Shown piece after piece: positions 3,576-34,028 of a DNA stretch of 35,963 nucleotides. The notes beneath the pieces were generated by a model. That model saw only the letters and a list, made by a program, of their open reading frames with translations. It ran no database searches and had not been told where the DNA came from. A program made the translations under genes and the position numbers. The stretch's first letter is position 1. Each line of letters opens with the position of its first letter. This DNA is from Streptomyces phytophilus (GTDB taxonomy: Bacteria > Actinomycetota > Actinomycetes > Streptomycetales > Streptomycetaceae). The stretch is from contig NZ_JACBXC010000007.1 of assembly GCF_013870535.1 (NCBI RefSeq), positions 1 through 35,963 on the forward strand. The letters are read 5' to 3'.

Positions 3576-4691
3576 TCATTCCGCGGTCATTCCTGTCTGC
3601 CCTTGGCGAAGTCCCCGGGTGGAGTCGAACTTTCGGCGCCGGGCCAGGGAGACGTGCACGAGGGCGATGAGCACCGGGACTTCGATGAGGGGGCCGACGA
3701 CGCCTGCGAGGGCCTGGCCTGAGGTGACGCCGAAGGTGGCGATGGCGACCGCGATGGCGAGTTCGAAGTTGTTGCCGGCCGCGGTGAAGGCGAGCGTGGT
3801 GGTGCGGTCGTACGGGAGGCCGATGGCTCTGCCGAGGGCGAAGGTGCCGAACCACATGAGTGCGAAGTAGACCAGGAGGGGCAGCGCGATCCGGGCGACG
3901 TCCAGGGGGTGCGAGGTGATCGTCTCGCCCTGGAGGGCGAAGAGGAGCACGATCGTGAAGAGCAGCCCGTAGAGCGCCCACGGGCCGATGCGGGGCAGGA
4001 TGCGCTGCTCGTACGCCGTGCGGCCGAGGCGGCGTTCGCCGATGCGGCGGGTGAGGAAGCCGGCGAGGAGGGGGACGCCGAGGAAGACGGCGACGTTGAG
4101 CGCGATCTTCCATGTCGAGATGTCGAGGTTTTCGCCGTCGCCCAGGCCGAGCCGGCCGGGGAGGAGGTCGAGGTAGAACCAGCCGAGGAGGCCGAAGGCC
4201 AGTACCTGGAAGACGGAGTTGAGCGCCACCAGGACGGCCGCGGCTTCGCGGTCGCCGCAGGCCAGGTCGTTCCAGATGATGACCATCGCGATGCAGCGGG
4301 CGAGCCCGACGACGATCAGGCCGGTGCGGTACTCGGGCAGGTCGGGCAGGAAGATCCAGGCCAGGGCGAACATCACCGCAGGGCCGATCAGCCAGTTGAC
4401 CGCCAGGGAGGCGGTCAGCAGCCGGCGGTCGCCGGTGACGGCGTCCAGGCGGTCGTAGCGGACCTTGGCCAGCACCGGGTACATCATGATCAGCAGGCCG
4501 AGGGCGATGGGCAGGGAGATGCCGCCGGTCTCCACCTTCGCCAGTGCGTCGTCCAGCCCCGGGACGACCCGGCCCAGGCCGAGGCCGGCGGCCATGGCGA
4601 GCAGGATCCAGACGGCGAGGTAGCGGTCGAGCGTCGACAGCTTGCGGGCCACGTGCTCCTCGGCACCGGCTTCCGGGCCGGCGGTGACCAC
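3576..4691 (-). CDS. acr3: ACR3-family arsenite efflux permease
   Basis: 371 residues with about ten hydrophobic spans. Exports arsenite, As(OH)3, across the membrane using the proton gradient. The ACR3 signature GLARCIAMVIIWNDLACGD (129-147) contains the conserved essential cysteine (Cys133). A conserved glutamate follows in GPLIEVPVLIAL (Glu337), and the AAGNNFELAIAVAIATFG segment is also typical. GTG start at 4691, one base after the arsR stop, so the two genes should be translationally coupled. With arsR and the divergent arsC it forms the basic arsenate/arsenite detoxification unit, needed by a cell that handles arsenic in its metabolism. Confidence 0.95.
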   Translation of the reverse strand: MVTAGPEAGAEEHVARKLSTLDRYLAVWILLAMAAGLGLGRVVPGLDDALAKVETGGISLPIALGLLIMMYPVLAKVRYDRLDAVTGDRRLLTASLAVNWLIGPAVMFALAWIFLPDLPEYRTGLIVVGLARCIAMVIIWNDLACGDREAAAVLVALNSVFQVLAFGLLGWFYLDLLPGRLGLGDGENLDISTWKIALNVAVFLGVPLLAGFLTRRIGERRLGRTAYEQRILPRIGPWALYGLLFTIVLLFALQGETITSHPLDVARIALPLLVYFALMWFGTFALGRAIGLPYDRTTTLAFTAAGNNFELAIAVAIATFGVTSGQALAGVVGPLIEVPVLIALVHVSLARRRKFDSTRGLRQGQTGMTAE

Positions 4692-4692
4692 G

Positions 4693-5004
4693 TCAGCAGG
4701 CCCGCTTGCGGTCGGCGTCCACGGTGGCGCGGGCGGCTGCTCCCAGTTCGGCGAACGAGCCGGCCAGCGCCTCCAGCACCGCGGGGCGCAGCTTGTAGTA
4801 CGTGAAGCGACCGCACGGCTCGGTCTCCACCACCCCGGCCTCGCGCAGCACCCGCAGATGGTTGGAGAGGTTCGTCTGCCGCGCTCCGGTCTCCTCCACG
4901 AGGTGCGTGGTGCACAGCGTCTCCGCGGCCAGGAGCTCGACGATCCGGACCCGGAGCGGGTCCGCCAGGGCGCGGATCACTTCAGTATCGACTGATGTCA
5001 GCAT
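4693..5004 (-). CDS. arsR: ArsR/SmtB-family repressor of the acr3-arsC unit
   Basis: 103 residues. Winged-helix DNA-binding repressor released by trivalent arsenic. The recognition helix region is ARQTNLSNHLRVLREAGVV (41-59) and the wing is GRFTYYKL. Cysteines are at 31 (TLCTTHL), 64 (EPCGRF) and 103 (the last residue). None forms the CVC pair seen in the other ArsR proteins of this window, so the sensor site is of a different design. Divergent from arsC across 72 bp holding an inverted repeat; stop and acr3 start are 1 nt apart. Confidence 0.93.
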   Translation of the reverse strand: MLTSVDTEVIRALADPLRVRIVELLAAETLCTTHLVEETGARQTNLSNHLRVLREAGVVETEPCGRFTYYKLRPAVLEALAGSFAELGAAARATVDADRKRAC

Positions 5005-5007
5005 GGG

Positions 5008-5025
5008 CTGATATTGTCACATCAG
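5008..5025. promoter_or_regulatory. candidate ArsR operator between arsR and arsC
   Basis: Inverted repeat CTGAT (5008-5012) and ATCAG (5021-5025) with an 8-nt spacer, starting 4 nt upstream of the arsR start codon in the arsR/arsC divergent spacer. Further CTGAT/CTGATG copies flank it (about 4992 and 5032). Its position suits a repressor controlling both directions. Confidence 0.5.
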
Positions 5026-5076
5026 GCGAAGCTGATGCCACCCCTCCCCCATCGCCGCACGACAAGAGAGACCGCG

Positions 5077-5490
5077 ATGTCCGACAAGCCCTCCGTGCTG
5101 TTCGTCTGCGTCCACAACGCCGGCCGCTCCCAGATGGCCGCGGCCTGGCTGACCCACCTCGCCGACGACCGCGTCGAGGTCCGCTCCGCCGGGTCGGTCC
5201 CCGCCGACACCGTCAACCCCGCGGTCGTCGAAGCGATGCGGGAGGTCGGTATCGACATCGCGCACGAGCAGCCCAAGGTCCTCACCACCGATGCCGTGCG
5301 GGCGTCGGACGTCGTCATCACCATGGGCTGCGGCGACGCCTGCCCCGTCTTCCCCGGCAAGACCTACCTCGACTGGGATCTGGACGATCCGGCCGGTCAG
5401 GACGTCGCGGCCGTACGTCCCATCCGCGACGAGATCCGTACGCGTATCGAGTCCCTCATCGCCGACATCGCACCGGCAGCCGGCGCGTAA
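5077..5490 (+). CDS. arsC: arsenate reductase, low-molecular-weight phosphatase type
   Basis: 137 residues. Reduces arsenate to arsenite in the cytoplasm. The nucleophile loop is CVHNAGRS: Cys11-X5-Arg17. The second cysteine cluster, TMGCGDACPVF, supplies the residues that pass the disulfide onward, and the aspartate loop DWDLDDPAGQ follows. This is the thiol-relay class related to tyrosine phosphatases; whether the partner is thioredoxin or mycoredoxin/mycothiol cannot be read here. ATG at 5077 follows a purine-rich AAGAGAGA. The last 35 bp overlap tail-to-tail with the converging MFS gene. Besides detoxification it could supply As(III) to the pathway. Confidence 0.95.
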   Translation: MSDKPSVLFVCVHNAGRSQMAAAWLTHLADDRVEVRSAGSVPADTVNPAVVEAMREVGIDIAHEQPKVLTTDAVRASDVVITMGCGDACPVFPGKTYLDWDLDDPAGQDVAAVRPIRDEIRTRIESLIADIAPAAGA

Positions 5491-6715
5491 GGACCCGCCA
5501 CCGGCCTCGCCGTGCCGTTGTGCGATAAGCCGTCAGCGCCGCGGCCGCGCTGATCGCGGCGAGGGCGGCGAAGAGGTTCGGGTAGCCGCCGAGCGGCGCG
5601 GCCAGGGCGGTGCCCGCGAAGGGGGCCAGGGCCGAGGCGGTGACGGTGGGGGCGGCGAGCAGGCCGGAGAGGCGGCCGTAGTGCGTGGTGCCCCAGCGGT
5701 CGGTGATGGCGGTGGCCTGCAGGAGGGTGAGGTTGCCGCGGACGATGCCCGCGGCGACGGCGAGGGTGGCAAGCAGCGCGTAGGGGCCGGGGATGAGAGC
5801 GAAGGCGGCGGTGCCCAGTCCGCCCAGGGCGATGAGGGCGACGGTGCGCGTCCCGGGGCGGGTGCGGCGGGCGAGGGCCGCGTACAGGGTGCGGCCCATG
5901 GTCTGGCCCAAGCCTCCCAGTCCGAGGGCCCAGGCCGCCTGGCCGGTGGTATAGCCGCGTTCGAGGAGCAGCGGCACGACGGTGACGACGACCGCGTACA
6001 TGGCGAAGGCGGAGAGCGTCAGGGCTGCGGCGAGGAGTGCGAAGGTGCGGCTGCGGGCGATGCTCGTGGAGGTCGTCGGGCCTGCCGTGGGGGCCGGCGG
6101 GGCGGGAGGCCAGGGGCCGCGGAGGGCGAGGGCGTGGGCGGGCAGGGTGAGGGCGGCCAGGACGGCCGCGAGGATGAGGTAGCTGTGCCGCCAGCTGAAG
6201 TGGTCGGCGAGTTGGGCGGTCAGGGGCGCGAAGACGGTGGAGGCGAGGCCGCCGGCGAGGGTGACGGCCGTGAGGGCACGTACGTGGTCCGGCGCGTACC
6301 AGCGGGTGAGAGCGGCGAAGGCCGGCTGGTAGAAAGTGGCCGCCATCGCGAGCCCGGCCAGCAGCCAGCCGGCGACGAACTGGGGCAGGTTGGGCGCGGT
6401 GGCGATGACGGCCAGGCTCGTGACGGCGGCGGCCGACCCCAGGGTCATCACCCCGCGGGGGCCGCGGGCGTCGAGGATGCGGCCGATGCGGATGCCGGCG
6501 AGTGCGGAGACGAGGAGCGCGGCGGAGAACGCCGCGGTGGTGGCCGCCGGGCTCCAGCCGGTGGCGGCGGTGATCTCGGGGTTGAGGACGGGGAAGGCGT
6601 AGTAGACGACGCCCCAGCTCGTGATCTGGGTCAGGCACAGGGCGGGCAGAGCCGCGCGGGGACGCGGCCGGCGACCGGCCGCGGTCGCGTCCCCGCGCGT
6701 ACCGACATCGCTCAT
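5456..6715 (-). CDS. MFS transporter linked to arsI
   Basis: 419 residues with about 12 hydrophobic spans in two halves around a Pro-rich loop (about 205-215). The SWGVVYYAFPVL start and the GRILDARGPRGVM loop, with a conserved GRLSGLLAAP near the end, mark a major facilitator. It starts 7 nt after arsI, so the two are surely one transcript, which points to efflux of arsenite or of a methyl-/organo-arsenical. MFS pumps of several types (ArsK, ArsJ) occur in ars operons, but I cannot assign this one to a named type. The 3' end overlaps the converging arsC by 35 bp, and the C-terminal tail (RRGRWRVLTRRLPVRCRR) is very basic. Confidence 0.85.
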   Translation of the reverse strand: MSDVGTRGDATAAGRRPRPRAALPALCLTQITSWGVVYYAFPVLNPEITAATGWSPAATTAAFSAALLVSALAGIRIGRILDARGPRGVMTLGSAAAVTSLAVIATAPNLPQFVAGWLLAGLAMAATFYQPAFAALTRWYAPDHVRALTAVTLAGGLASTVFAPLTAQLADHFSWRHSYLILAAVLAALTLPAHALALRGPWPPAPPAPTAGPTTSTSIARSRTFALLAAALTLSAFAMYAVVVTVVPLLLERGYTTGQAAWALGLGGLGQTMGRTLYAALARRTRPGTRTVALIALGGLGTAAFALIPGPYALLATLAVAAGIVRGNLTLLQATAITDRWGTTHYGRLSGLLAAPTVTASALAPFAGTALAAPLGGYPNLFAALAAISAAAALTAYRTTARRGRWRVLTRRLPVRCRR

Positions 6716-6722
6716 CGACCGG

Positions 6723-7181
6723 TCAGCAGCAACCGGCCGCCGCGGGCTGTTGCTCCGCCGTGGCGGCAGCCGCGGGCGTGCAGCAGCTGCTGTTCTGCTC
6801 CTTGGCCAGGGAGTCCGCGTCGGCCTTGACGACGTACACCTCCCACGGCTCCTGGCCCGGGCCCTGTACCCAGACCTTGTCCTGCAGGGCGTAGCAGCAG
6901 GTCGTGTCGTCCTCCTCGACGGTGGCCAGCCCGGCCAGGTCCAGCCTGGCCGTGGCCTGCTGGACGTCCTCGCTGGATGCCACCTCTACTCCCAGGTGGT
7001 CCAGGCGGGTGCCCTCTCCCTCCGCTCCCTCGATGAGGACCAGCTTGAGGGGAGGCTCGGCGATGGCGAAGTTGGCGTAGCCGTCGCGGAGCTTGGCCGG
7101 CTCGGCACCGAACAGCCTGCTGTAGAAGTCGATCGATGCCTGCAGGTCGGGGACGCGCAGGGCGAGTTGTATCCGGGACAT
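6723..7181 (-). CDS. arsI: ArsI, C-As bond lyase (CadI/glyoxalase fold)
   Basis: 152 residues. Fe(II)/O2-dependent dioxygenase that cleaves the carbon-arsenic bond of trivalent organoarsenicals, releasing arsenite. Expected metal ligands are present: Gln5, His62 (RLDHLG) and Glu114 (EPWEVY). The vicinal cysteine pair that binds As(III), Cys95-Cys96 in TTCCYALQDKVWV, is present too. The Ala/Gln-rich tail adds two more pairs, Cys133-Cys134 and Cys151-Cys152 at the end, that could also bind arsenic. Start ATG 7181 with AAGGA upstream. Cotranscribed with the MFS pump and divergent from an arsR. In an organoarsenic producer this enzyme is probably self-protection or scavenging. Confidence 0.93.
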   Translation of the reverse strand: MSRIQLALRVPDLQASIDFYSRLFGAEPAKLRDGYANFAIAEPPLKLVLIEGAEGEGTRLDHLGVEVASSEDVQQATARLDLAGLATVEEDDTTCCYALQDKVWVQGPGQEPWEVYVVKADADSLAKEQNSSCCTPAAAATAEQQPAAAGCC

Positions 7182-7339: not shown

Positions 7340-7340
7340 C

Positions 7341-7703
7341 ATGTCTAAGTTGGCCTCGGACTCCGCCACGCTCGCCACCGTCACGCCGCTGGGGTGCTGC
7401 CGGCCGCTGGGGCGCGAGGAGTTGTCCGCCGACGACGCGGAGCCGATCGCCGCCATGTTCAAGGCGCTGTCCGACCCCGTCCGGCTGCGGCTCTTCTCGA
7501 AGATCGCGGTTCGGCCGGGCGGGGAAGCGTGCGTCTGCGAGATCCAGGACGTCGGCGTCTCCCAGCCCACGGTCAGCCACCACCTGCGCAAACTGCGGGA
7601 AGCCGGGCTGCTGTTGTCGGAACGCCGCGCCAGTTGGGTGTACTACCGGGTCGCACCCGGAGCGCTGTCGGTCATGGCCGGCCTGCTGTCGCAGGCCGAC
7701 TGA
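7341..7703 (+). CDS. arsR: ArsR-family repressor (CC/CVC type) facing arsI
   Basis: 120 residues. Winged-helix arsenic sensor. Cysteine pairs lie at Cys19-Cys20 in the N-terminal arm (LGCCRPL) and Cys64/Cys66 (ACVCEI), a typical trivalent-arsenic site of actinobacterial ArsR proteins. The DNA-reading helix is VSQPTVSHHLRKLREAG, followed by the wing SWVYYRV. It is a clear paralogue of the ArsR at 33663-34028 (shared MFKAL.DPVRLRLFSK and ACVC), while the ArsR at 4693 has a different cysteine layout. No Shine-Dalgarno is visible, and the motif GTCAACATAGAGG abuts the ATG. It probably controls itself and arsI-MFS. Confidence 0.93.
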   Translation: MSKLASDSATLATVTPLGCCRPLGREELSADDAEPIAAMFKALSDPVRLRLFSKIAVRPGGEACVCEIQDVGVSQPTVSHHLRKLREAGLLLSERRASWVYYRVAPGALSVMAGLLSQAD

Positions 7704-7799: not shown

Positions 7800-8489
7800 T
7801 CAGACAGCCGCGGCAGCGGGAGAAGCCGCGGCGGGCAGGTCCAGGAGGACGGTCGTGTCGCACAGGCGCTCCACCTGCGCCGGGTCGTGGGAGACGAGGA
7901 GGACCGTCCGGCGGCCGCGGAGCGCCGCGATGGACTGCTCGACCGTGTCCCTGCTCTGTTCGTCGAGCGCGCTGGTGGGCTCGTCGAGGAGCAGCCCGGC
8001 CGGCTCCAGGGCCAGCGCGCGGGCCAGGCAGAGCCGCTGCCGCTGTCCCGCGGAGAGGGTCTGGGCCGGGGCGTCGAGCCTGTCGGATACCTCCTTCCAC
8101 AGTCCGGCCTCGGTGAGGGCCTGTTCGGCCCGCTCGCGCAGTGCCTCCCGGGACGCGCGCAGGACGTGACGCAGGCCGAACAGGGCGTTGTCGAGGACGC
8201 TGCCGCCGAAGACGACCGGTGTCTGGGGTACGAGGACGACCTTGGCTCTGAGGTCCGCGTCGCCCTTGCCGGGTGCGATGGTGCGATCGAGGACCTTCAG
8301 GTCGCCGTCTCTGACGAGCCCGTCGGGGAGCAGGTCCACCAGCGCACGCAGGACGGTGGACTTGCCGGCGCCCGAGGGGCCGCACAATCCGGTGGTGGAG
8401 CCGCGTTCGAGGGTGAAGGAGACCGGGCCGACCAGGGTCTTGTCACGGGTGCGTACGCGTAGTTGGTGCACGGTGATTACGTCGTCCAT
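7800..8489 (-). CDS. pstB: Pst-type ABC transporter ATP-binding protein
   Basis: 229 residues, shorter than the usual PstB of about 250-260. Walker A is CGPSGAGKST, the Q-loop VPQTPVVFGGSVLDNALFG is Pst-like, the signature is LSAGQRQR, Walker B is LLLDEPTSALD and the H-loop is VSHD. It energises oxyanion import through the adjoining permease. The ATG at 8489 lies inside the permease gene, whose stop is 13 nt further on, so translation is coupled. The Ala/Pro-rich end (LPAAASPAAAAV) is unusual. Given the arsenic genes on both sides, the imported ion may be arsenate rather than, or as well as, phosphate; that is inference. Confidence 0.85.
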   Translation of the reverse strand: MDDVITVHQLRVRTRDKTLVGPVSFTLERGSTTGLCGPSGAGKSTVLRALVDLLPDGLVRDGDLKVLDRTIAPGKGDADLRAKVVLVPQTPVVFGGSVLDNALFGLRHVLRASREALRERAEQALTEAGLWKEVSDRLDAPAQTLSAGQRQRLCLARALALEPAGLLLDEPTSALDEQSRDTVEQSIAALRGRRTVLLVSHDPAQVERLCDTTVLLDLPAAASPAAAAV

Positions 8490-10282
8490 CGTTCTCCTTC
8501 GAAGCGGTTGCGCAGCGCGATCGCCGCGCTGAGGAGTACCGCGGTGATCAGGACCAGCACCATGGCGCTGCCCCACGCCTGGTCGACGGCCTGCGGGTCG
8601 CCCGAGTCCTGGGAGAGGGTGAAGATGTGGGTCGGCAGTGCCTGCACCGGGGACTCCACGATCCCGTTCGGCACCGTGGGAGCGCCGAAGAACACGGTGG
8701 CGGTGAAGAGCAGCGGAGCGGTCTCGCCGGCTGCGCGCGCCAGGCCGAGCAGCAGGCCGGTGACGGTGGCGGGCCAGGTGTAGGGAACGACGACCGACCG
8801 GATGTACTGGGCACGTGTCAGCCCCAGCGACAGTGCGCTCTCGGTGAGTTCGGGTGGCAGGCTCCGGATGCGTGCCGCGGTGGTCAGGGCGACGACGGGT
8901 GCCACGACGGGGACGAGCACGATGGCGCCGGCCAGCCAGGACCTTCCCCATCCCATGCTGGTGGACAGGATGACGAAGCCGGCGAGCCCCAGCAGGATGG
9001 TCGGCACGCCGCCCAGGACGAGCGTCAGCGTCTGCAGCACACGCGCCGTCCGCGCGGAGGCGTGGGTGCCGATCAGGATGCCGGCGCCGAAGCCCAGCGG
9101 CAGGGCGAGCAGCCCTGTGGTGACGACGAGCAGGAGGGTGCCGGTTATCTGGTCGCGTACGCCTCCGCCGGCCGCTCCGGTCGCCGCGCTGACCCAGAAC
9201 GACGGGTTGAACGCCGAGGTGCCCCGTGTCACGAGGAGGCCGAGAATTCCGATCAGCAGTGCGCTGGGCAGCAGCAGGGCTCCCAGCCGCCATACCGTCA
9301 GCAGCCGGTCCCGCTGCTGCCGCAGCCGCGGTGTCGGCAGGTGCCCGGCCTTCCGCGTGCTCCGGCGCCGTTCCCGTGTGCCCCAGATGGTCGCTCCGGC
9401 CACCAGCGCCAGAAGGAGGAGGCCCAGGCCGCACAGGGCGGCGAAGTGCGGTCCTGAGGTGCCGGCGAGTACGGGCTCGGGGCCGGCGAGTTTCGTGGTC
9501 AGCGTCTGGCCGGGGTGGCTCAGCGAGTCGAGGAACTCGCCGAAGCCGTGGGGCATCCGCCCGTCGGCCCTGCCCACCACCAGGAACACCGCGATGGCTT
9601 CGCCGAGCGCCCGGGCCAGACCGAGCAGCACGGCGGCGCGCATCCCCGACCGCGCCAGCGGCAGGACCGCCGAGCGGATCACTTCCCCGCGGGTGAGGCC
9701 GAGGGAGTAGGCGGCCTCGCGGTAGCGGTCGGGCACGGCGGAAAGGGCGTCGACGCTGACGGCCACGACCGTGGGAACGATCATGACGGCCAGGACGATG
9801 CCGGCTGCCGCGAGGCTGTCTCCGCCCGGCACGTCGGCGATCGACGCGATGACGGGACGGATGACGGCGATGCCGATGAGGCCGTAGACGATCGACGGGA
9901 CGGCGGCGAGCAGCTCCACGCACATGCGCATCGGCCGGGCGATGCGCGGCGGGAGGTACTCCGACAGCGCGATGGCCGCCGCCCATCCGATGGGTACGGC
10001 GAGGACGAGGGCGAGGACGGAGACCACAGCGGTGCCGTAGATCATCGCCAGGCCGCCGAAGGCCGCGTTGGGCGGGCTCCACGCGGACTCGGTCACCAGG
10101 TTCAGCCAGTCGACGGTGCCGCTGCCGATACCGCTGCCGAGATATCCGACAACGGCGAGAAGCAGCCCCGCGACGGCGAGTGCTCCGGCGTAGGTCCAAC
10201 TCCACACCCACGTCGACGGCCTGGGGCGTCTGCCCTCGTCGGAGGTGGCGGATGGTCGAGCCGGTGTCTTGGTCGTAGCCAT
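8477..10282 (-). CDS. fused PstC-PstA permease of an oxyanion ABC transporter
   Basis: 601 residues, about twice the length of one Pst permease. The first half (about 1-310) is PstC-like and the second (about 330-601) PstA-like. Each half carries an EAA loop that contacts the ATPase: EAAYSLGLTRGEVIRS in the first and ESALSLGLTRAQYIRS in the second. The halves are joined by a basic linker (RERRRSTRKAGHL). PstC and PstA are normally separate proteins forming a heterodimer, so the fusion fixes their pairing. It starts 3 nt after the pstS stop and overlaps pstB by 13 nt. Membrane channel for phosphate- or arsenate-like ions. Confidence 0.88.
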   Translation of the reverse strand: MATTKTPARPSATSDEGRRPRPSTWVWSWTYAGALAVAGLLLAVVGYLGSGIGSGTVDWLNLVTESAWSPPNAAFGGLAMIYGTAVVSVLALVLAVPIGWAAAIALSEYLPPRIARPMRMCVELLAAVPSIVYGLIGIAVIRPVIASIADVPGGDSLAAAGIVLAVMIVPTVVAVSVDALSAVPDRYREAAYSLGLTRGEVIRSAVLPLARSGMRAAVLLGLARALGEAIAVFLVVGRADGRMPHGFGEFLDSLSHPGQTLTTKLAGPEPVLAGTSGPHFAALCGLGLLLLALVAGATIWGTRERRRSTRKAGHLPTPRLRQQRDRLLTVWRLGALLLPSALLIGILGLLVTRGTSAFNPSFWVSAATGAAGGGVRDQITGTLLLVVTTGLLALPLGFGAGILIGTHASARTARVLQTLTLVLGGVPTILLGLAGFVILSTSMGWGRSWLAGAIVLVPVVAPVVALTTAARIRSLPPELTESALSLGLTRAQYIRSVVVPYTWPATVTGLLLGLARAAGETAPLLFTATVFFGAPTVPNGIVESPVQALPTHIFTLSQDSGDPQAVDQAWGSAMVLVLITAVLLSAAIALRNRFEGERWTT

Positions 10283-14770: not shown

Positions 14771-14823
14771 GCACTGCCTCCAGCGGTTCTTCGGGGACGA
14801 GCGTGCGGCGTTCGCGGGGCGGG

Positions 14824-22788: not shown

Positions 22789-22827
22789 GGATGCCCCCGG
22801 GGTCGGTGGTGGGAAGGAGCGGACAGG

Positions 22828-26900: not shown

Positions 26901-29900
26901 TCGGGGCGGGGGTGCAGGAGTGCGGGGGCGTGTCCGGCCAGGTACTGCAGGCGCAGCCCGCGCATCTGCGCGACGAGCCGGCCGTCGTCGTCACGGATGT
27001 CGATGTCGGCGGCGAAGGAGTCCTCGCGGTCGGACGGCAGGAGCCGGGCGTGGCTGAACAGGGAGGCGGACGGCTGCCGGTGGAAGCGGACCTCGTCGAT
27101 GCCGCCCAGGACGAAGACGCCCTCCTCTCCGGGAGCGGTCGGCGGCCGGGCCGCGGCCATGGCATGGCCGCTCGCGTCCAGCAGCGCGGGGTGGAAGTGG
27201 TGCCGTATGAGATCGCCGGTGAGGGGCGCGGGGCAGACCAGGTGGGCGAGGACTTCGCCGTCCGTGCGCCACAGCTCGGTGATGCCTTGGAAGGTGCCGT
27301 TCCACTGGTTGCCGCGTTCGGCGTGCCACGGGTAGAACTCCGCGGCGCTCTGGTGCTGCGGCAGGCGGGTCCGGATGGTCTGGAGCGGTTCGGACGGCTC
27401 GGGTGCAGCGGTCGGCAGGGCGCGAGCGGTGCCTTCGGTGTGGAGGGTCCACTCGCCGCCCTCGTCGTCCCGGCTGTGGACACGGCAGTGCAGCGAGGTG
27501 TCCGGCCGGGAAGTGACGGTGACCTTGACCTCGGGCGCGGGGCCGTCCTCGTCGAGGAAGAGGGCGCGGTGGTAACGCACGTCCGAGACGGACAGGGTGC
27601 CGGTCTCCAGGACGGAACGGGCGGCTGCGGAGATGATCTCCAGGTGGGCTGTGCCCGGCAGGATGATCGTGTCCTGGATCCGGTGGTCCCGTAGATAGGC
27701 GTTGTCCGCGAGGGTCAGCGGCCCTTGCCACGTACGGGTGCCGCCGTCGGCGGGCAGCGGCCGGCCCAGCAGCGGGTGCGTGCGCTCCGCGGGGTCCTGC
27801 GAGGTCGGGACCGAGGCGGTCCCCGGGCGCGCGGGGGGCGCCGGGATGCTGCTGGGGCTGATCCAGTGGCGGGTGCGCTGCCAGGGGTAGGACGGGAGCG
27901 GCACGTAGCGCCCGCCCTCCGTCAGCGTACGGAAGTCGAGGTCGACGCCGGCCGCGTGCAGGGAAGCGGCGAAGGTGAGCAGGCTGGACCGCTCGTCGGT
28001 GTGGCGGCGCAGGCTGCCGACCGCGGTGGTGTCCGCGCCGGTGTGCAGGCGGCCGATCTCGCGGATGTTGGCCACCAGCAGCGGGTGGGGACTGACCTCG
28101 ATGAACACGGTGTCACCGCGGCTGAGCCGGCTGCTGACGGCGCCGGCGAAGTCGACGGGCCGGCGGATGTTGCGCACCCAGTAGTCCGCGTCCATGCCCG
28201 AGCCGTCGATCACCTCGTTCAGCAGGGTCGAGTGCAGCGGGATGCTGCCGGCTCGCGGGGCGAGGTGGTCCAGTTCGGCGAGGAGGTCCTCGCGCAGCGC
28301 GTCCATCTGCGGGCAGTGCGAGGCGAAGTCGACGTTGACTCGCCGGTTGTCGACGCCGCGTGCGTCGAGGGCGTCGAGTACGCGGGTCAGCGCGTCGACG
28401 TCGCCGGACAGCAGCGTGGACGTGGGGCTGTTGATGGCGGCCACGGCGACCTTGTCCTCGACTCCGGCCAGCGCTGCCGCGGCCTCGTCGGCGGGCAGCG
28501 CCACCCAGGCCATGGTGCCGCGGCCCGAGAGGCGCTTGGCGAGGCGGCTGCGGCGGCAGATGACGGCGGCCGCGTCCTGCAGCGAGAGCGCGCCGGAGAT
28601 GTACGCCGCCGCCGACTCGCCCATGCTGTGGCCGATGACCACATCCGGCTCCACGCCCCAGGACCGCCACAGCTCGGCCAGGGCGATCTCCATGGCCCAC
28701 AAGGTGGGCTGGATGACGTCGAGTTCCTTGAGGCGCTCCTCGTCCGCGGCGCGCAGCAGCTCGATGACCGACCAGCCGGTCTCGGTCTTGACGGCGTCGT
28801 CGCACGCTCCCATCGCCTGGGCGAAGACCGGCTCGGTGTCGAGGAGCTCGCGGCCCATCCCGGGCCACTGCGAGCCCTGTCCGGGGAAGACGAACGCGAC
28901 GCTGGGGCGGGCGTCGGGGTCGGTGTAGTCGCTGCTGGCCAGGCCGGGTTCGTCCTCGCCTGCGGCGAACCCGCGCAGGGCGGCGGCCGCCTCGCTGTGG
29001 CTGTCGGCCGGGAACGCGAGCCGGGCGTCATGGGTCGTACGGCGCAGGGCCGCCGAGTGGCAGATGTCGCGCAGGGAGTGACGTGTGCCGTCACCGTCGA
29101 GGTAGGCGGCCATGCGGTGTGCGCCTTCCGCCAGGGCCTCGGGGCTGAGCGCGGACAGCACCAGCAGTTCGCTGCGCTCCCCCGGCTGCTGCCCGTCCGG
29201 CTCGGGCGCGGGCGGCTGGGGGGCGGCTTCGAGGACCAGGTGGGCGTTGGTGCCGGAGAAGCCGAAGCTGCTGACCCCGGCGACGGCCGGGCGGCCCCTG
29301 TCGGGCAGCGGCGTCGCGTCGGTGGGGACGGTCAGCGGCAGGTTCTCCCAGTCGACGGCCGGGTTGGGGTTCTTCAGGTGCAGGCTGGGCGGGACGGTCC
29401 GGTGCTCCAGGCACAGCACGGCCTTGATGAGCCCGGCGATGCCGGCGGCCGCCTCGGCGTGACCGATGTTGGTCTTCACCGAGCCGACCAGGGGGCGCCG
29501 GTCCCGGGCGCGTTCGCCGACGACGGATGCCAGGGCTTCCAGCTCGACCGGGTCGCCGACGCTCGTCCCCGTGCCATGCGCCTCGATGTAGTCCACGTCG
29601 GCGGGGTCGACGCCGGCATTGGCGTACGCGCGGCGCAGTACGCCGAGCTGGCCCTCGACGGCCGGGGTGACCAGATAGCCGCTGGACCGGCCGTCGTTGC
29701 CGACGGCGGAGCCGCGGATGACGGCGCGGATGCGGTCGCCGTCGGCCTGGGCGGCGTACAGCGGCTTGAGGATGACCGCGCCGACGCCGTCGCTGCGGAC
29801 GAACCCGTCGCCGGAGGCGTCGGCGAACTTGCAGCGGCCGTCGGCGGCGAGCATGCCGGCTCCGGAGTACACGACGCCTTCCTCCGGCAGCAGCACCACG

Positions 29901-30538
29901 TTGACGCCGCCGGCGATGGCCACCGGGCACTCGCCCAGCCGCAGGGCCTGAACGGCGTTGTGGACGGCGACGAGCGCGGAGGAGCAGGCGGTGTCGACGG
30001 TGAAGCTGGGGCCGCGCAGGTCGAACGCGTACGACAGCCGGCCCGAGGTGATGGCGCGGGAGGCCGCGCCGGTCATGGCGTACAGGTCGAGCTCGTCGCG
30101 CCTGTCGTACTGCAGGTGCCAGTAGTCGCCGCCGAGTTGGCCGACGAACACTCCCGTGTCCGTGCCGCCGAGGGCGGCGAGGGACTGCCCGGCGTCTTCG
30201 AGGGCCTCGTACGCGACCTCCAGCAGCAGCCGCTGCTGCGGGTCCATCCGGTCGGCCTCGCGGGGGGAGATGCCGAAGAACTCGGCGTCGAACGCGTCGA
30301 TGTCGCGCAGCAGCCCGCCCCACCGGCTGACGGTACGGCCGCGGGTACGGGGCTCGGGGTCGTAGACGGCGTCGACGTCGTAGCGCTCGGGCGGGATCTC
30401 CGTGATGGCGTCACGGCCCTGGAGCAGCATGTCCCAGAGCTGTTCTGGACTGGTGGCGTCGGCGAACCGCCCGGCCATACCGACGATGGCGATCGGTTCG
30501 CCGGCGGCCTCGGCCGCACGGCTCAGATCGTGGTGCAT
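23939..30538 (-). CDS. iterative type I polyketide synthase, methylmalonyl-specific, KS-AT-DH-psiKR-ER-KR-ACP
   Basis: 2199 residues, a single highly reducing module in the style of mycocerosic acid synthase. KS 13-440: Cys185 (DTACSS), His321 (EAHGTGT), His360 (NIGHAE). AT 547-870: Ser638 (GHSMGE) and FASH at 738-741, close to the YASH marker for methylmalonyl-CoA. DH 920-1200: His952 and Asp1121. A catalytically empty structural KR region spans about 1240-1460. ER about 1485-1790 has HSATGGTGRAA (1613-1623). KR about 1800-2060: TGGAGGIG, Ser1960, Tyr1973, Asn1977. ACP about 2120-2195: Ser2152 (GMDSL). No thioesterase or methyltransferase. ATG 30538 has AAGGA upstream. One module used repeatedly would give a methyl-branched, partly reduced acyl chain. 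Confidence 0.95.
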   Translation of the reverse strand: MHHDLSRAAEAAGEPIAIVGMAGRFADATSPEQLWDMLLQGRDAITEIPPERYDVDAVYDPEPRTRGRTVSRWGGLLRDIDAFDAEFFGISPREADRMDPQQRLLLEVAYEALEDAGQSLAALGGTDTGVFVGQLGGDYWHLQYDRRDELDLYAMTGAASRAITSGRLSYAFDLRGPSFTVDTACSSALVAVHNAVQALRLGECPVAIAGGVNVVLLPEEGVVYSGAGMLAADGRCKFADASGDGFVRSDGVGAVILKPLYAAQADGDRIRAVIRGSAVGNDGRSSGYLVTPAVEGQLGVLRRAYANAGVDPADVDYIEAHGTGTSVGDPVELEALASVVGERARDRRPLVGSVKTNIGHAEAAAGIAGLIKAVLCLEHRTVPPSLHLKNPNPAVDWENLPLTVPTDATPLPDRGRPAVAGVSSFGFSGTNAHLVLEAAPQPPAPEPDGQQPGERSELLVLSALSPEALAEGAHRMAAYLDGDGTRHSLRDICHSAALRRTTHDARLAFPADSHSEAAAALRGFAAGEDEPGLASSDYTDPDARPSVAFVFPGQGSQWPGMGRELLDTEPVFAQAMGACDDAVKTETGWSVIELLRAADEERLKELDVIQPTLWAMEIALAELWRSWGVEPDVVIGHSMGESAAAYISGALSLQDAAAVICRRSRLAKRLSGRGTMAWVALPADEAAAALAGVEDKVAVAAINSPTSTLLSGDVDALTRVLDALDARGVDNRRVNVDFASHCPQMDALREDLLAELDHLAPRAGSIPLHSTLLNEVIDGSGMDADYWVRNIRRPVDFAGAVSSRLSRGDTVFIEVSPHPLLVANIREIGRLHTGADTTAVGSLRRHTDERSSLLTFAASLHAAGVDLDFRTLTEGGRYVPLPSYPWQRTRHWISPSSIPAPPARPGTASVPTSQDPAERTHPLLGRPLPADGGTRTWQGPLTLADNAYLRDHRIQDTIILPGTAHLEIISAAARSVLETGTLSVSDVRYHRALFLDEDGPAPEVKVTVTSRPDTSLHCRVHSRDDEGGEWTLHTEGTARALPTAAPEPSEPLQTIRTRLPQHQSAAEFYPWHAERGNQWNGTFQGITELWRTDGEVLAHLVCPAPLTGDLIRHHFHPALLDASGHAMAAARPPTAPGEEGVFVLGGIDEVRFHRQPSASLFSHARLLPSDREDSFAADIDIRDDDGRLVAQMRGLRLQYLAGHAPALLHPRPEDTVTATDTTEPSSPPPADSDHGDWLHTLTWEPAPVPAGRGAGTDPNGFWLVLTDSGSAGRSLVRELTGRGRRVVAVTAGAGAFAGGGDRYRVDPSNEDHYREILGDVARDGTCRGILHLWSLDARAGLDATPAEVGRAQLLAAHSVLHLTRALERHPLGHPPLWVITQLAQATAVGEAVRHPFQAVSWGLVRTLAGEAPALTPRLVDLDRSAASVPALADLLLHPDGEDQVALRDGRRFAARLVPADLPATGSGVPRALSLPAPGVIDDLRLTERMPRALGADEVRIRVSHAGVNYRDVLLSLGMYPGQDDRPPVMGWECAGTVTETGDTVTDVAVGDEVIAFAEGALASEVVTRACLTAPQPARLTAAEAATLPAAYLTAYHSLVDLAGLERGQKVLIHSATGGTGRAAMNIARWKGAHIYATAGSDAKREMLTKLGVEQVADSRSLTFADTFKAAAGGTGFDAVYNTLPGEAVAANLSLMAPYGHYLELSKRDILDNNPLPLGAFARNLSFHAVDVVHMIQHAPQRAGRVLRAAADLVGRGALEPLPHTVYPAGQAADAFRLMAQSRHTGKIVLSFDEAASGPVTAPRGRPVAVHADGTYLVTGGAGGIGGRLALWLADQGAGHLLLTGRRPLPESGTPLAEDNPQAASVALMDELRKRGVNVTYEAVDVADAPAMQALLTARRRTGLPPVRGVFHAAGVIDYTPLSEMSGTELDRVLAAKVSGAWNLHRLLRGEPVEAFVLFSSGSALLSSPMLGGYAAGNAFLDALAHHRQAERLPATVVNWGFWESVGMVHRQEEQEQRTLLPQGMSSFSPDEGLALLGRILAEGLVHTAVLPADWPAWARAYPAAAEAPLLTHLLPDARPAERAAVQVPDEQAAQPSLAPAAEPRPATAVPPAAAAPDTEALDFLKQEVATVMGLRPERVNVNRPLNKLGMDSLMAVELRNRIERRYQVKLPMVKLLKDGTITTVAQALADELDSANALA

Positions 30539-30824
30539 GGATGTCCTTCCGGGAAGGGCGAAGCCGTTCACTGTGAAGCAGCACGGAAGGAACCGCGGTC
30601 TGTGCGCGGCAGGCCGGCAGCGGGACCGGCTCGGTGGCGGGCGCACACACCGAGAGCAGGCAGGAGTAGGAAAGGTCGGGGAAGATCCGGTCCCGTCATC
30701 TGAACGGCCGCGTGCGTGGCGAACGCATCTGACCGTTCACGGGCCGGTGGGCCGTCGGCACGACCGCTGCTCCCCCGTGAGCCCCGGCATCGGACACATG
30801 CCCGCGCCGTCTACTCCCGCTGTT

Positions 30825-30838: not shown

Positions 30839-30889
30839 GATTGGCCCGTCGCGGGGCACTCACGCAACGCGACGAAGAGTGACGCTCGT

Positions 30890-30922: not shown

Positions 30923-31037
30923 TTCATCGAACCAACGGCAATCCTGGAAGCCTGATTCGTTATTTATCTATATAGGCGGTCGTGATGAGCCCGCTCCCGC
31001 GCCGCGATCAGGGCTGCCGCGACAGGAGCTGAAACCG

Positions 31038-31244
31038 ATGAGCGACCCCGCCGCGGACACCGGCGCCTCCGAGCCGGCCAGTGCCTGCTGCGCCGCGATG
31101 GCGGAACTCCAGCGCCGGGCCCGGCCGCGCACCGAGCAGGACGCACAAGCCCGGACCGGCGTGCCCGCCGGCACCACGCCGCCCGAGACCGAGCCCGCCC
31201 GATCCGCGCCCCAGCCCTTCGTAACGCGCCCTAGCCCTTCGTGA
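31038..31244 (+). CDS. small CC-motif protein, possibly the detached N-terminus of the monooxygenase
   Basis: 68 residues from ATG 31038 with AGGAG (31024-31028) 9 nt upstream. Contains an adjacent cysteine pair, Cys17-Cys18 (ASACCAAMAEL), a short basic helix (LQRRARPRTEQDAQ) and a Pro/Thr-rich end. No known domain. The vicinal cysteines could bind trivalent arsenic, as the CC pairs in the neighbouring ArsR proteins do. The stop (31242-31244) is followed by the monooxygenase start at 31259. A 20-bp tandem duplication spans the end of this frame; without it the frame runs straight into the monooxygenase, so it may be a broken-off N-terminal extension. Confidence 0.55.
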   Translation: MSDPAADTGASEPASACCAAMAELQRRARPRTEQDAQARTGVPAGTTPPETEPARSAPQPFVTRPSPS

Positions 31245-31245
31245 G
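31206..31245 (+). repeat. 20-bp tandem duplication at the start of the monooxygenase gene
   Basis: GCGCCCCAGCCCTTCGT (31206-31222) recurs at 31226-31242 with one change (C to T), a period of 20 bp. Twenty is not a multiple of three, so the duplication shifts the reading frame between the small CC protein and the monooxygenase. Confidence 0.85.
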
Positions 31246-31258
31246 AGGACACCGCATC

Positions 31259-32740
31259 GTGGTTGACCACCACCCGGACCACCTTCCCGTCGCCGTGATC
31301 GGAGCCGGCCCCGTCGGCCTCGCCGCAGCGGCACACCTGGCGGAACGCGGCGTTCCCTTCGTCGTCGTGGAAGCCGGCGACGCCCCGGCGGCGGCGGTGC
31401 GCGCCTGGTCCCACATCCAGCTCTTCAGCCCCTGGGAGTTCAACGCCGACCCGGCCGCCCGCCGCCTGCTCACGGCCGCCGGCTGGGAGCAGCCCGACGC
31501 CTCGGCCCTGCCCACCGGGGGCGACCTCGTCAAGCAGTACCTCCAGCCGCTGGCCGAGCTGCCCGCGCTGGCCCCCCACATCCGCTACGGCGCCGCCGTC
31601 ACCGCGCTCAGCCGCCACGGCATCGACCGGGTACGTACCACCGGCCGTGAGACGACTGCGTTCGTACTGCGCCTGGCCGACGGCGAGGAACTGCTCGCCC
31701 GTGCCGTCATCGACGCCTCCGGCACCTGGTGCCGGCCCAACCACGTCGGCGCCAACGGCCTGCCCGCCCACGGAGAGCCGGACGCCGCCGCCTGGATCAG
31801 CCACGGCCTGCCCGACGTCCTCGGTACGGACCGCGCCCAGCACGCCGGCCGCCACACGGTCGTCGTCGGCGCCGGCCACTCGGCCGCCAACACCCTCCTC
31901 GCCCTCGCCGAACTCGCCGACGCCGAGCCCGGCACCACGATCACCTGGGCCATCCGCGCCGCCGACCCGGCCGCCTCCTTCGGCGGCGGCAGCGACGACG
32001 AACTGCCCGCCCGGGGCGCCCTCGGCTCCGGCCTGAAGATGCTCGTGGACACCGGCCGCGTCACGCTCGCCCCCGGCTTCCGCACCCACGCCATCCGCCG
32101 CCTGGGCGACGACCCGGCGCAGGACCAGGTCGAACTCGTCTCCCGCGACGCGGACGGCAACGAGCAGACCGTCACCGCCGACCGCGTCGTCGCGGCGACC
32201 GGATTCCGCCCCGACCACGGCATCACCGACGAACTGCGCCTGGACCTGGACCCGATCATGTCCGCACCCCGTGCGCTGGCACCCCTGATCGACCCCAACC
32301 AGCACTCCTGCGGCACCGTCACCCCGCACGGCTACCGCGAACTGGCCCACCCCGAACCGGGCTACTACGCCGTCGGCATGAAGAGCTACGGCCGCGCCCC
32401 CACGTTCCTCATGCTCACCGGCTACGAGCAGGTCCGCTCCATCGCCGCGGCGCTCGCCGGCGACCTGGAAGCCGCCCGGTCGGTCGAACTCCAGCTGCCC
32501 GAGACCGGCGTCTGCTCCGTGACCGCCGGCGGCGAGGCCCTCGCGCTGCGCCTGGGCCTGACCAAGGACCAGCACGAGCAACTCCTCCAGGTCACCGCCA
32601 AGCACCTGGGCTCCTCTGCCAGCGCCTCGGATGCGGTACTCACCGCGGCCACGGAACTCGGCGTCGACCACACCACGGCACTTCAACTGGCCGCGTACGC
32701 CGCCGACATGTTCGACGCCCCCGACGCACCGGGCTGCTGA
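31259..32740 (+). CDS. FAD-dependent monooxygenase of the ars-locus (ArsO-like) type
   Basis: 493 residues. FAD-binding fold at the N-terminus (VAVIGAGPVGLAAA, 11-24), second Rossmann fold for NADPH (HTVVVGAGHSAANTL, about 200) and the ATGFRPD motif common to flavin monooxygenases. A helical extra domain of about 100 residues closes the protein, ending in GC. Flavoproteins of this kind sit beside arsR in many actinobacterial ars loci (arsO), where their reaction is not settled; oxidation of a trivalent arsenical is plausible. GTG 31259 is preferred because AGAGGA (31244-31249) lies 9 nt upstream; GTG 31241 in the same frame is possible. The true gene may once have begun at 31038. Confidence 0.85.
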   Translation: MVDHHPDHLPVAVIGAGPVGLAAAAHLAERGVPFVVVEAGDAPAAAVRAWSHIQLFSPWEFNADPAARRLLTAAGWEQPDASALPTGGDLVKQYLQPLAELPALAPHIRYGAAVTALSRHGIDRVRTTGRETTAFVLRLADGEELLARAVIDASGTWCRPNHVGANGLPAHGEPDAAAWISHGLPDVLGTDRAQHAGRHTVVVGAGHSAANTLLALAELADAEPGTTITWAIRAADPAASFGGGSDDELPARGALGSGLKMLVDTGRVTLAPGFRTHAIRRLGDDPAQDQVELVSRDADGNEQTVTADRVVAATGFRPDHGITDELRLDLDPIMSAPRALAPLIDPNQHSCGTVTPHGYRELAHPEPGYYAVGMKSYGRAPTFLMLTGYEQVRSIAAALAGDLEAARSVELQLPETGVCSVTAGGEALALRLGLTKDQHEQLLQVTAKHLGSSASASDAVLTAATELGVDHTTALQLAAYAADMFDAPDAPGC

Positions 32741-32747
32741 CCGACGA

Positions 32748-32788
32748 CGGCGCGGCTGTTCCGCGCACCGCACCGAACAGCCGCGCCG
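32748..32788. terminator. bidirectional hairpin between monooxygenase and SDR
   Basis: A perfect 14-bp stem, CGGCGCGGCTGTTC (32748-32761) with its complement at 32775-32788, around a 13-nt loop. It lies 7 nt after the monooxygenase stop and 14 nt beyond the end of the converging SDR gene. Confidence 0.85.
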
Positions 32789-32802
32789 AGGCACGACCGG
32801 CT

Positions 32803-33579
32803 CTAGGGGACGCGATGCACCTTGTGCTGGGCCGCCTGCGCCCGGGGGCGTACGACCATGAGGTCGACGTTCACGTGCGAGGGCCGGCTCACCGCCCACG
32901 CCACCGCGTCCGCCACGTCCTCGGCCACGAGCGGGCCCGGGACTCCCGCGTAGACCGCGTCGGCCCTGCTCGTATCCCCGCGGTAGCGGTTGAGCGAGAA
33001 CTCCTCGGTCTGCACCATGCCGGGCGCGATCTCGATCACCCGCAACGGCTGCCCGCACGATTCGAGCCGCAACGTCTCCGCGAGCACGTGCGCCCCGTGT
33101 TTGGCGGCGCTGTAGCCGCCACCGCCCTCGTAGCAGGTGAAGGAGGCCGTCGAGGTCAGCACCACCACCGTGCCGTCACCGCTCGCCAGCAACTTCGGCA
33201 GCAGCGCCTGCGTCACCTTGAGCGCACCCAGCACGTTGACCTCGTACATGCGCCCCCAGTCACCGGGATCCGCATCCGCCACCTCCTCCACCCCGTAGGC
33301 ACCGCCGGCGACGTTCACCAGCACATCGCAGACCTCGACCTGCTCGGCGAACGCGGCGACGGCCTCCCCGTCCGTCACATCCAGCGGATACGCCCGCACC
33401 GCGCCGCCCTCGGCCCGGATCTCCCCGGCAACCGCCTCCAGGCGGTCGGCCCGCCGCGCGGCAAGGACCACGGCGAACCCTGCGCGCGCCAACTCACGCG
33501 CGGTGGCCGCACCGATGCCGCTGCTCCCTCCGGTGACCACCGCGGTACGCGACTGCCGGGCGTGGTCGGGTGATGCCAT
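32803..33579 (-). CDS. short-chain dehydrogenase/reductase
   Basis: 258 residues, classical SDR. Nucleotide-binding TGGSSGIG (16-23), with RR at 42-43 after the second strand, favouring NADP(H). NVAGG (89-93) and Asn115 follow. The catalytic set is Ser143 (LTSTAS), Tyr156 and Lys160 (YSAAK). C-terminal NVDLMVVRPRAQ is typical of YdfG-like NADP enzymes acting on small hydroxy acids or aldehydes. Divergent from an arsR, with an inverted repeat in the spacer. In the proposed pathway it could reduce arsonoacetaldehyde to the hydroxyethyl arsonate, but nothing in the sequence fixes the substrate, and a general stress role is possible. Confidence 0.9.
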   Translation of the reverse strand: MASPDHARQSRTAVVTGGSSGIGAATARELARAGFAVVLAARRADRLEAVAGEIRAEGGAVRAYPLDVTDGEAVAAFAEQVEVCDVLVNVAGGAYGVEEVADADPGDWGRMYEVNVLGALKVTQALLPKLLASGDGTVVVLTSTASFTCYEGGGGYSAAKHGAHVLAETLRLESCGQPLRVIEIAPGMVQTEEFSLNRYRGDTSRADAVYAGVPGPLVAEDVADAVAWAVSRPSHVNVDLMVVRPRAQAAQHKVHRVP

Positions 33580-33600
33580 GAGTGCTGCCCCCAGGTCTTG

Positions 33601-33618
33601 ATTAGACGGTTGTCTAAT
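33601..33618. promoter_or_regulatory. inverted repeat in the SDR/arsR spacer
   Basis: ATTAGAC (33601-33607) and GTCTAAT (33612-33618), perfect 7-bp arms with spacer GGTT, 22 bp upstream of the SDR start. The form suits a TetR- or similar dimeric repressor, but no such gene is in the window; the neighbouring ArsR is another possibility. Confidence 0.5.
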
Positions 33619-33648
33619 AATATGACCTTGGCATCGGGGAAAACTAGT

Positions 33649-33661
33649 GACAACATAGACG
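33649..33661 (+). promoter_or_regulatory. ArsR-box variant abutting arsR
   Basis: GACAACATAGACG ends 1 nt before the ATG at 33663. It matches the GTCAACATAGAGG element of the 7.3 kb arsR at 11 of 13 positions and at the same distance from the start codon. Probably a shared operator or leaderless promoter element. Confidence 0.5.
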
Positions 33662-33662
33662 T

Positions 33663-34028
33663 ATGTCGAAGCTTCAGGAGATGGTGGCCGCGCTTCCGGC
33701 CGAGCCGTGCTGCCCTGCCCTGACCGAGCGTGAGCTGACCGCCGAGGAAGCCGAACTCACCGCCGCGATGTTCAAGGCCCTCGGCGACCCCGTCAGACTC
33801 CGCCTCTTCTCCAAGGTGGCCTCCCACCCGGACAGCGAAGCCTGCGTGTGCGACATCGCCGACGTCGGAGTCTCCCAGCCCACCGTGTCCCACCACCTGA
33901 AGAAGCTCAAGGAAGCCGGCCTCCTGGCATCCGAACGCCGCGGCACGTGGGTCTACTACCGCGTCGAACCCGCGGTCCTGGCAGCCATGGGCCGCCTCCT
34001 GACCCCCGCCCCCGCAAAGGCCGCCTGA
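33663..34028 (+). CDS. arsR: ArsR-family repressor (CC/CVC type) at the right end of the island
   Basis: 121 residues, paralogue of the ArsR at 7341-7703. Cysteine pair Cys16-Cys17 (AEPCCPAL) in the N-terminal arm and Cys61/Cys63 (ACVCDI); shared core MFKALGDPVRLRLFSK; recognition helix VSQPTVSHHLKKLKEAG; wing TWVYYRV. No Shine-Dalgarno; the ATG follows the ACATAGA element directly, as in its paralogue. Likely controls itself and the divergent SDR, and perhaps the arsI unit too. It is the last intact gene of the arsenic island; mobile-element remnants begin just after it. Confidence 0.93.
   Translation: MSKLQEMVAALPAEPCCPALTERELTAEEAELTAAMFKALGDPVRLRLFSKVASHPDSEACVCDIADVGVSQPTVSHHLKKLKEAGLLASERRGTWVYYRVEPAVLAAMGRLLTPAPAKAA

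Follow-up and report, generated by a model that had tools for sequence, protein, structure and literature searches.

The 35,963-nt stretch of the Streptomyces phytophilus genome analyzed here (contig NZ_JACBXC010000007.1, positions 1 to 35,963; hereafter the window) belongs to an assembly of 6.9 Mb in 1772 contigs that is 82% complete. Family scans revealed 23 open genes between glnA, which ends at 3432, and transposase-like frames at ~34.1–35.0 kb; this cluster spans 3576–34028 and all 23 genes are intact. An earlier note on this DNA had listed acr3, arsC, arsI, four arsR genes, a 5-enolpyruvylshikimate-3-phosphate synthase (EPSPS)-like enzyme, a cofactor-independent phosphoglycerate mutase (iPGM)-like enzyme, a phosphonopyruvate decarboxylase (PPD)-like enzyme, a polyketide synthase (PKS), a β-ketoacyl-acyl carrier protein synthase III (KASIII)-like protein and major facilitator superfamily (MFS) exporters, each of which we found as an open frame. 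In addition to these, the cluster contains pstS, a fused pstC-pstA and pstB, a molybdopterin (Mo) oxidoreductase of the twin-arginine (Tat) type, a class-I glutamine amidotransferase (GATase), a flavin monooxygenase, a short-chain dehydrogenase/reductase (SDR), a DedA protein and a 119-aa protein. The scans matched no methyltransferase or radical S-adenosylmethionine (SAM) family among the 23 genes. We consider it very probable from sequence that the window carries a bisenarsan-type (bsn) cluster, whose complete gene set should, as far as genes alone tell, convert arsenate to a small arsenic-carbon acid and join this acid to a polyketide chain.

The bsnM-like gene (13448–14773, minus strand) encodes an EPSPS-family transferase that scores over the cut-offs of PF00275 and TIGR01356, and it adjoins the bsnN-like gene for an iPGM-family mutase (11916–13448, minus strand; TIGR01307 over cut-off). 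In a tree of 94 EPSPS rows, built by a quick method with no bootstrap and having several long branches elsewhere, the window protein lies in a 36-row clade (SH-aLRT 100) with a stem of 1.2 changes per column. A second clade holds 13 AroA rows of the same genomes, including the AroA fragment of S. phytophilus itself (L002), and a third holds three further EPSPS rows of these genomes (L099, L112, L113). Two loci with a stop in the extracted frame (L036, L075), one with no tblastn hit (L003) and 15 duplicates were left out of the tree. PF06415 (iPGM_N) has exactly one match per genome in 33 of 33 genomes, always at the bsnMN locus. The earlier note had named a phylogeny that places both enzymes with housekeeping AroA and glycolytic iPGM as a result that would refute it; we found instead that the EPSPS-like protein falls outside AroA and that the iPGM-like gene is single-copy and in the cluster. 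As judged from these comparisons, the two genes are not housekeeping copies.

The positions that we take to be the E. coli EPSPS ligands of shikimate 3-phosphate (S3P) and phosphoenolpyruvate (PEP) are kept in the BsnM rows, 13 of the 16 in 36/36 rows (K22, S23, R27, R124, S169, S170, Q171, S197, Y200, D313, K340, E341 and R344) and H385, R386 and K411 in 35/36; N94 and N336 in the same numbering are altered. In BsnN, the presumed catalytic positions of iPGM are kept in 36/36 rows, the position of R191 is Lys in 36/36, and the residues just after it differ from those of two aligned solved iPGMs. This Lys fits an altered substrate but is no proof of one. The retention of the S3P and PEP ligands is what would be expected if 5-enolpyruvylshikimate 3-phosphate (EPSP) is the pyruvyl donor, as has been proposed in the literature. 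In the accessible text of the review that presents this chemistry (PMC12159101), BsnM is proposed to convert EPSP and arsenate to arsenoenolpyruvate, which BsnN rearranges to arsonopyruvate, thereby forming the C-As bond, and the window enzymes would act likewise. The S. coelicolor mutase SCO6818 was doubted as a glycolytic enzyme in the available part of a paper on glycolysis in that species.

The bsnJ-like gene (20993–22108, minus strand) encodes a PPD-family enzyme (TIGR03297 353 bits, cut-off 312) that would decarboxylate arsonopyruvate to arsonoacetaldehyde. The same review proposes this step for BsnJ, followed by a reduction, and its accessible text leaves open whether the reductase is cluster-encoded or an orphan. 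The window offers a candidate, the SDR at 32803–33579 (minus strand; PF00106, with YdfG as the best NCBIfam model, below cut-off), whose relatives include the solved sulfoacetaldehyde reductase 6ixj (E 4e-35), clavaldehyde dehydrogenase and YdfG-type enzymes. IsfD, an SDR, reduces sulfoacetaldehyde to isethionate according to the text available of PMC6616044, a reaction analogous to the arsonoacetaldehyde reduction needed here. By this analogy, we lean slightly toward the cluster SDR as the enzyme that would reduce arsonoacetaldehyde to 2-hydroxyethylarsonate (2-HEA).

The distribution of the SDR bears on this assignment. Of 34 genomes, 16 encode BsnJ at ≥60% identity and one more, G324, matches at 42% but contains a stop; we tested the SDR in 15 of these 16 and in 4 of the 18 others, the genome searches being made without L011. 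The SDR adjoins the cluster in 11 of the 15 bsnJ genomes and in none of the four without bsnJ, and in two more bsnJ genomes (G299, G301) it lies at 77–79% identity on a separate contig, the cluster contig ending short of the expected place. Several observations weigh against the assignment. Two of the 15 bsnJ genomes (G300, G308) have a paralogue only and no other close SDR; the G300 contig also ends near the expected SDR place, but that of G308 continues beyond the PKS without an SDR. Moreover, every one of the 19 genomes searched has the paralogue at 63–70% identity, although the G301 copy is partial. It is thus a weaker but substantial possibility that this paralogue or another enzyme serves as the reductase of a bsn-type cluster and that the cluster SDR has another task, against which stands the co-occurrence of the cluster SDR with bsnJ.

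The acyl chain would be built by a one-module PKS of 2235 aa (23939–30646, minus strand) with the Pfam domain order ketosynthase, acyltransferase (AT), dehydratase, enoylreductase, ketoreductase and acyl carrier protein (KS-AT-DH-ER-KR-ACP), which is presumed to be iterative and to give a methyl-branched product. The AT motif reads FASH, the exact strings YASH, VASH and HAFH being absent, and resembles YASH, which we take to be the methylmalonyl AT motif. The KASIII-like gene (22869–23909, minus strand) encodes a candidate ester-forming acyltransferase whose nearest solved relatives are ChlB3, two chains named just 3-oxoacyl-ACP synthases, DpsC and CerJ. In the accessible part of the review PMC12159101, bsnPKS and bsnFB of S. 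lividans give 2,4,6-trimethyl-2-nonenoic acid, and 2-HEA attacks the acyl chain on the PKS carrier (BsnPKS, BsnFB); that part names no further enzyme for this step.

According to the available text of the ChlB3 paper, the ChlB3 triad is Cys113-His296-Asp301, and CerJ transfers malonyl to the hydroxyl group of a sugar. C113, H294 and D299 of the window protein align with this triad, which is common to ChlB3, CerJ and the window protein, and are kept in 14/14 rows. The family alignments were made at 85% coverage with the window included (KASIII 14 rows, SDR 12, Mo oxidoreductase 18), which left out loci cut by contig ends or gaps. From these residues, we marginally favor the KASIII-like protein as the ester former: its Cys113 would accept the chain carried by the PKS, and transfer of this chain to the 2-HEA hydroxyl would then yield bisenarsan or a near homologue. 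The proposed acceptor would therefore differ from the ACP used by ChlB3 and the sugar used by CerJ. The same paper, as far as its text is available, also holds points against this role, since the acyl group of ChlB3 goes to an ACP, with the ester being formed afterwards by ChlB6, and since DpsC is classed among the condensing enzymes. With DpsC and ChlB3 among the nearest solved relatives, and with 2,4,6-trimethylnonenoate needing a propionyl starter by our own reasoning, the KASIII-like protein of a bsn-type cluster could instead load the starter, as DpsC does, or pass the acyl group to another carrier, as ChlB3 does, the ester being made by another enzyme or without enzymatic help. We consider this rather unlikely, because DpsC has a Ser where the Cys stands, because the invariant Cys-His-Asp set is common with the hydroxyl-acylating CerJ, and because no carrier-protein family was matched in the 23 genes except in the PKS.

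In S. verrucosisporus (L019), the SDR adjoins bsnJ and bsnMN are present, and the best match from a KASIII search of the genome has 32% identity. This suggests that the pathway encoded there stops at 2-HEA or diverts, and S. verrucosisporus is perhaps a 2-HEA producer. The absence of KASIII from a draft is weak evidence, since none was seen either in the draft genome G301, whose strain is of the PKS type.

We scanned the EPSPS-like protein against named genomes and obtained at least 79 loci (L007–L085). Among the matches listed, 36 loci (L007–L042) have 66–95% identity and are all actinobacterial as named, and the other 43 have 29–44% identity with no BsnN match within the DNA compared; S. lividans and S. 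coelicolor were not among the matches listed. Three of 297 sampled genomes of the family, including that of S. phytophilus, contain the EPSPS-like gene at E < 1e-90. The closest relative among the matches listed, S. aculeolatus DSM 41644 (L007, L126, L135), has the 23 genes in the same order, with 95% identity for bsnM, 98% for KASIII and 97% for the SDR. Window positions 3558–34034 are collinear with it in pieces of 87.6–96.0% DNA identity with a ~100-base gap in the PKS. At least 11 loci (L008–L017, L033) share much of the arrangement, several of them cut by contig ends, and the pst genes are on the opposite side in L017. A block of PKS, flavin monooxygenase, SDR and arsR4 is kept in eight of the nine far flanks of PKS loci (L126–L133); Catenuloplanes (L134) has this block without the SDR, and in L028 and L031 the arrangement is different, with the SDR on the other side of bsnMN, a picture that their further flanks (L137, L138) leave unchanged.

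Since the order is collinear with that of S. aculeolatus and largely recurs elsewhere, the gene grouping is not due to chance. The earlier note had called the region an island. The grouping was confirmed, but a mobile element is not supported, as G+C is steady at 67–75% across the window and one side abuts glnA. On the outer side of arsR4, at ~34100–35000, frames resemble a broken IS5-type transposase by eye only. We also considered a 53-bp stretch (3462–3514), which lies downstream of glnA and recurs outside arsR4 in S. aculeolatus, as an attachment repeat and dropped this idea because the stretch is a GC-rich, terminator-like hairpin. S. aculeolatus has ~5.7 kb between acr3 and glnA (L135, 1–5700) that is not in the window, with frames for a flavin oxygenase, a hydrolase and a VOC-type protein as read by eye.

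These data allow the window to be compared with the known bsn system. According to the accessible text of the review PMC12159101, BsnM, BsnN and BsnJ are needed for 2-HEA in S. lividans, and the bsn cluster of S. lividans 1326 contains EPSPS, PGM, PPD, PKS, arsenic resistance genes and ArsR and has no SAM enzyme, all of which is the same in the window. Every gene type named there is present except bsnFB, for which we identified no counterpart; this might be the KASIII gene. In the available parts of the S. coelicolor papers, the cluster comprises SCO6812–SCO6837 or SCO6811–6837, with SCO6818 as PGM, SCO6819 as EPSPS and SCO6826–6827 as polyketide genes. The six numbers between SCO6819 and SCO6826 correspond to six window genes between bsnM and KASIII, a match read from the numbering that fails if SCO6826 is a piece of the PKS. 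The window differs in having four ArsR genes, compared with five reported in the available S. coelicolor text, and in having glnA abut the cluster. In summary, gene content, the EPSPS tree, the single-copy iPGM and the SCO gene numbers support the earlier note in connecting this region with bisenarsan and the arsenic cluster of S. lividans. Two points count against it: the match to S. lividans is indirect, by gene content and the S. coelicolor gene numbers and not by sequence, and the EPSPS and iPGM scores exceed the housekeeping NCBIfam cut-offs, so that the family models alone would name AroA and GpmI. Because the review reports bsnMN as widespread and the S. coelicolor papers place the cluster, this kind of cluster is already known and the window adds a further member.

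The enzymes could also act on phosphorus, as a phosphonate pathway with an unusual mutase into which the Pst-like transporter feeds phosphate. The PPD-family enzyme and the Pst-type transporter would suit such a pathway, and no residue found here proves a preference for arsenate. This reading is nevertheless highly improbable, since the arsenic genes are interleaved with the others and since, in the accessible text of PMC12159101, the product of the S. lividans cluster is an arsenical whose synthesis depends on bsnM, bsnN and bsnJ. Furthermore, the 23 genes include no PEP mutase, in agreement with the earlier note, and TIGR02320 gave only sub-cut-off matches, with none over cut-off in five genomes including that of S. 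phytophilus, in a search that had no positive control (0/14 control genomes pass either) and that included an assembly only 82% complete; the phosphonate cluster was rejected on this ground. Least probable of all is that a usual arsenic-resistance locus lies next to a polyketide cluster with which it has nothing to do and that the EPSPS-like and iPGM-like enzymes are housekeeping ones: the ars genes alone would make a normal resistance locus and the two enzymes do pass the housekeeping cut-offs, but the tree, with the separate AroA fragment of the same genome, and the single iPGM_N copy rule this out for these two genes, and the gene order is kept across species.

Beyond the biosynthetic genes, the cluster encodes proteins that may supply arsenate. 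A pstS-like binding protein (10286–11158, minus strand; PF12849, TIGR02136 169 bits, below the cut-off of 207), a fused PstC-PstA permease of 601 aa (8477–10282, minus strand; TIGR02138 and TIGR00974 over cut-off in one protein) and a PstB-like ATPase (7800–8486, minus strand; PF00005, best NCBIfam model PstB, below cut-off) would together import arsenate. Each of six genomes searched also has one or more further pstC matches over cut-off away from the cluster, and we regard the arsenate importer role of the cluster Pst as fairly likely.

The Mo oxidoreductase (14824–17361, minus strand; PF00384, PF01568, PF04879) has a Tat-like N-terminus and would adjust the proportions of As(III) and As(V). 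The twin-arginine start and the string GPVCNDAG are kept in 18/18 rows and a 4Fe-4S motif is present; no NCBIfam model was over cut-off among the 25 matches listed. A role in arsenic redox is tentative and is the least certain assignment; it counts against this role that the protein scores higher with models for formate dehydrogenase, thiosulfate reductase and nitrate reductase than with the arsenate reductase model ArrA. In formate dehydrogenase, a catalytic His directly follows the Mo-ligand Cys/Sec. This His is not found in the Mo oxidoreductase, while three aligned chains read C-H, X-H and C-H there, and the protein reaches 329 bits against Fdh-alpha, with a cut-off of 666. A Streptomyces plasmid carries an annotated molybdopterin oxidoreductase among arsO, acr3, arsC and thioredoxin genes, a likeness by annotation.

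The arsenite efflux permease gene acr3 (3576–4691, minus strand; TIGR00832 439 bits, cut-off 283) is followed by arsR1 (4693–5004, minus strand), arsC for an arsenate reductase of the low-molecular-weight phosphatase type (5074–5490, plus strand; PF01451 (LMWPc) over cut-off, the ArsC models below theirs), an ArsK-like MFS transporter (5456–6715, minus strand; PF07690, ArsK NF033733 150 bits, below the cut-off of 400) and arsI of the ArsI/CadI family with Cys-Cys at its C-terminus (6723–7166, minus strand; NF041414 198 bits, cut-off 116). Three more repressor genes, arsR2 (7341–7703), arsR3 (20516–20908) and arsR4 (33663–34028), are on the plus strand, and all four ArsR proteins have HTH_5 and HTH_metalloreg over cut-off. 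Acr3, ArsC, ArsI and the ArsR repressors would handle inorganic and trivalent arsenic and control gene induction, and the DHA2-type MFS exporter (18840–20405, plus strand; TIGR00711 over cut-off) may export the product. The remaining genes encode the class-I GATase, related to the C-terminal part of CTP synthase (17474–18190, minus strand; PF00117 just over cut-off, NF004836 229 bits, cut-off 260), the DedA-family membrane protein (22093–22791, minus strand; PF09335) and the flavin-dependent monooxygenase/oxidoreductase (31241–32740, plus strand; PF13738, best NCBIfam model ArsO, 49 bits, cut-off 425).

The end of bsnN overlaps the gene for the 119-aa protein (11560–11919, minus strand), which has no match in the Pfam or NCBIfam scans. 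An iterated hidden Markov model (HMM) detected its family in 28 of the 36 related loci listed. In 27 of these 28 it lies immediately downstream of bsnN or in the same frame, whereas in S. verrucosisporus (L019) it is near the SDR; L008 gives a weak, incomplete match. It was not found by this search in L017, L021, L023, L025 and L039–L042. In Herbidospora mongoliensis (L022, 10411–13191), the 119-aa sequence forms the C-terminal part of the BsnN frame, a fusion that rests on one genome because the sister locus L025 is without it. The structure model of the 119-aa protein (mean pLDDT 84) weakly resembles the C-terminal beta domain of glycoside hydrolase family 13 (GH13) enzymes, which stand at the top of the Foldseek matches (best E 5e-3, query TM 0.48–0.56), with nothing at E 0.001 or better. 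The AlphaFold model of the L022 frame has block pLDDT values of 27–51 across its C-terminal part, so that no interface between BsnN and the 119-aa part can be read from it.

The accessible text of the review describes the surroundings of bsnMN as diverse. Clusters without PKS or bsnJ (e.g., L022, L026, L038, L041 and the plasmid NZ_CP109189.1) share with the window bsnM, bsnN, often the 119-aa protein, the ars genes and often pst, and carry instead aminotransferase, permease, FemAB/GNAT-type or ATP-grasp and GNAT-type genes. Thus L026 (2232–5311) has an aminotransferase, with an aspartate transaminase model as the best match, below cut-off, and an ArsP_1 permease, and L038 (545–8104) has a FemAB-like protein beside bsnMN. 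L022 (15125–20531) has ATP-grasp and GNAT-type genes by scan, and L041 (15660–20503), L021, L023, L025, L040 and L042 have likewise by eye. The 316-kb Streptomyces plasmid NZ_CP109189.1 (L139) carries bsnN and bsnM under the annotations gpmI and aroA, with genes for an aminotransferase, a permease and a GNAT protein alongside. In the clusters with ATP-grasp and GNAT-type genes, unrelated proteins end in Cys-Cys. The last four residues contain CC in 46 of 514 GC-filtered frames of L007–L042 and in 9 of 143 in twelve flank loci, and by longest-frame calling in 32 of 566 (L007–L042) vs 1 of 460 (L043–L085) and 0 of 45 (L002, L003, L099–L113), related loci being counted repeatedly.

Taking these neighborhoods together, we offer a speculative joint reading, in which the C-As unit would consist of three proteins, BsnM, BsnN and the 119-aa protein as a stand-alone GH13-C-terminal-like beta domain acting on or with BsnN. 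This unit would feed at least two further organoarsenical classes, an arsono-amino acid via the aspartate-type aminotransferase and ArsP-type permease and a peptide or amide via the ATP-grasp and GNAT-type enzymes. A literature search on 'arsonopyruvate' or the gene combination, with most subscription papers outside its scope, returned only the review PMC12159101, and we make no claim that the KASIII, SDR and 119-aa assignments, which were inferred here, are unpublished.

It is rare for a C-As bond to be formed with no SAM enzyme, and the evidence for this in the accessible text of PMC12159101 comes from gene disruption and feeding. Our comparison offers one candidate each for the reductase and the ester step, as well as a frequent companion of the mutase. 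As bsnMN sits in distinct neighborhoods, the routes to several arsenicals may diverge at arsonopyruvate.

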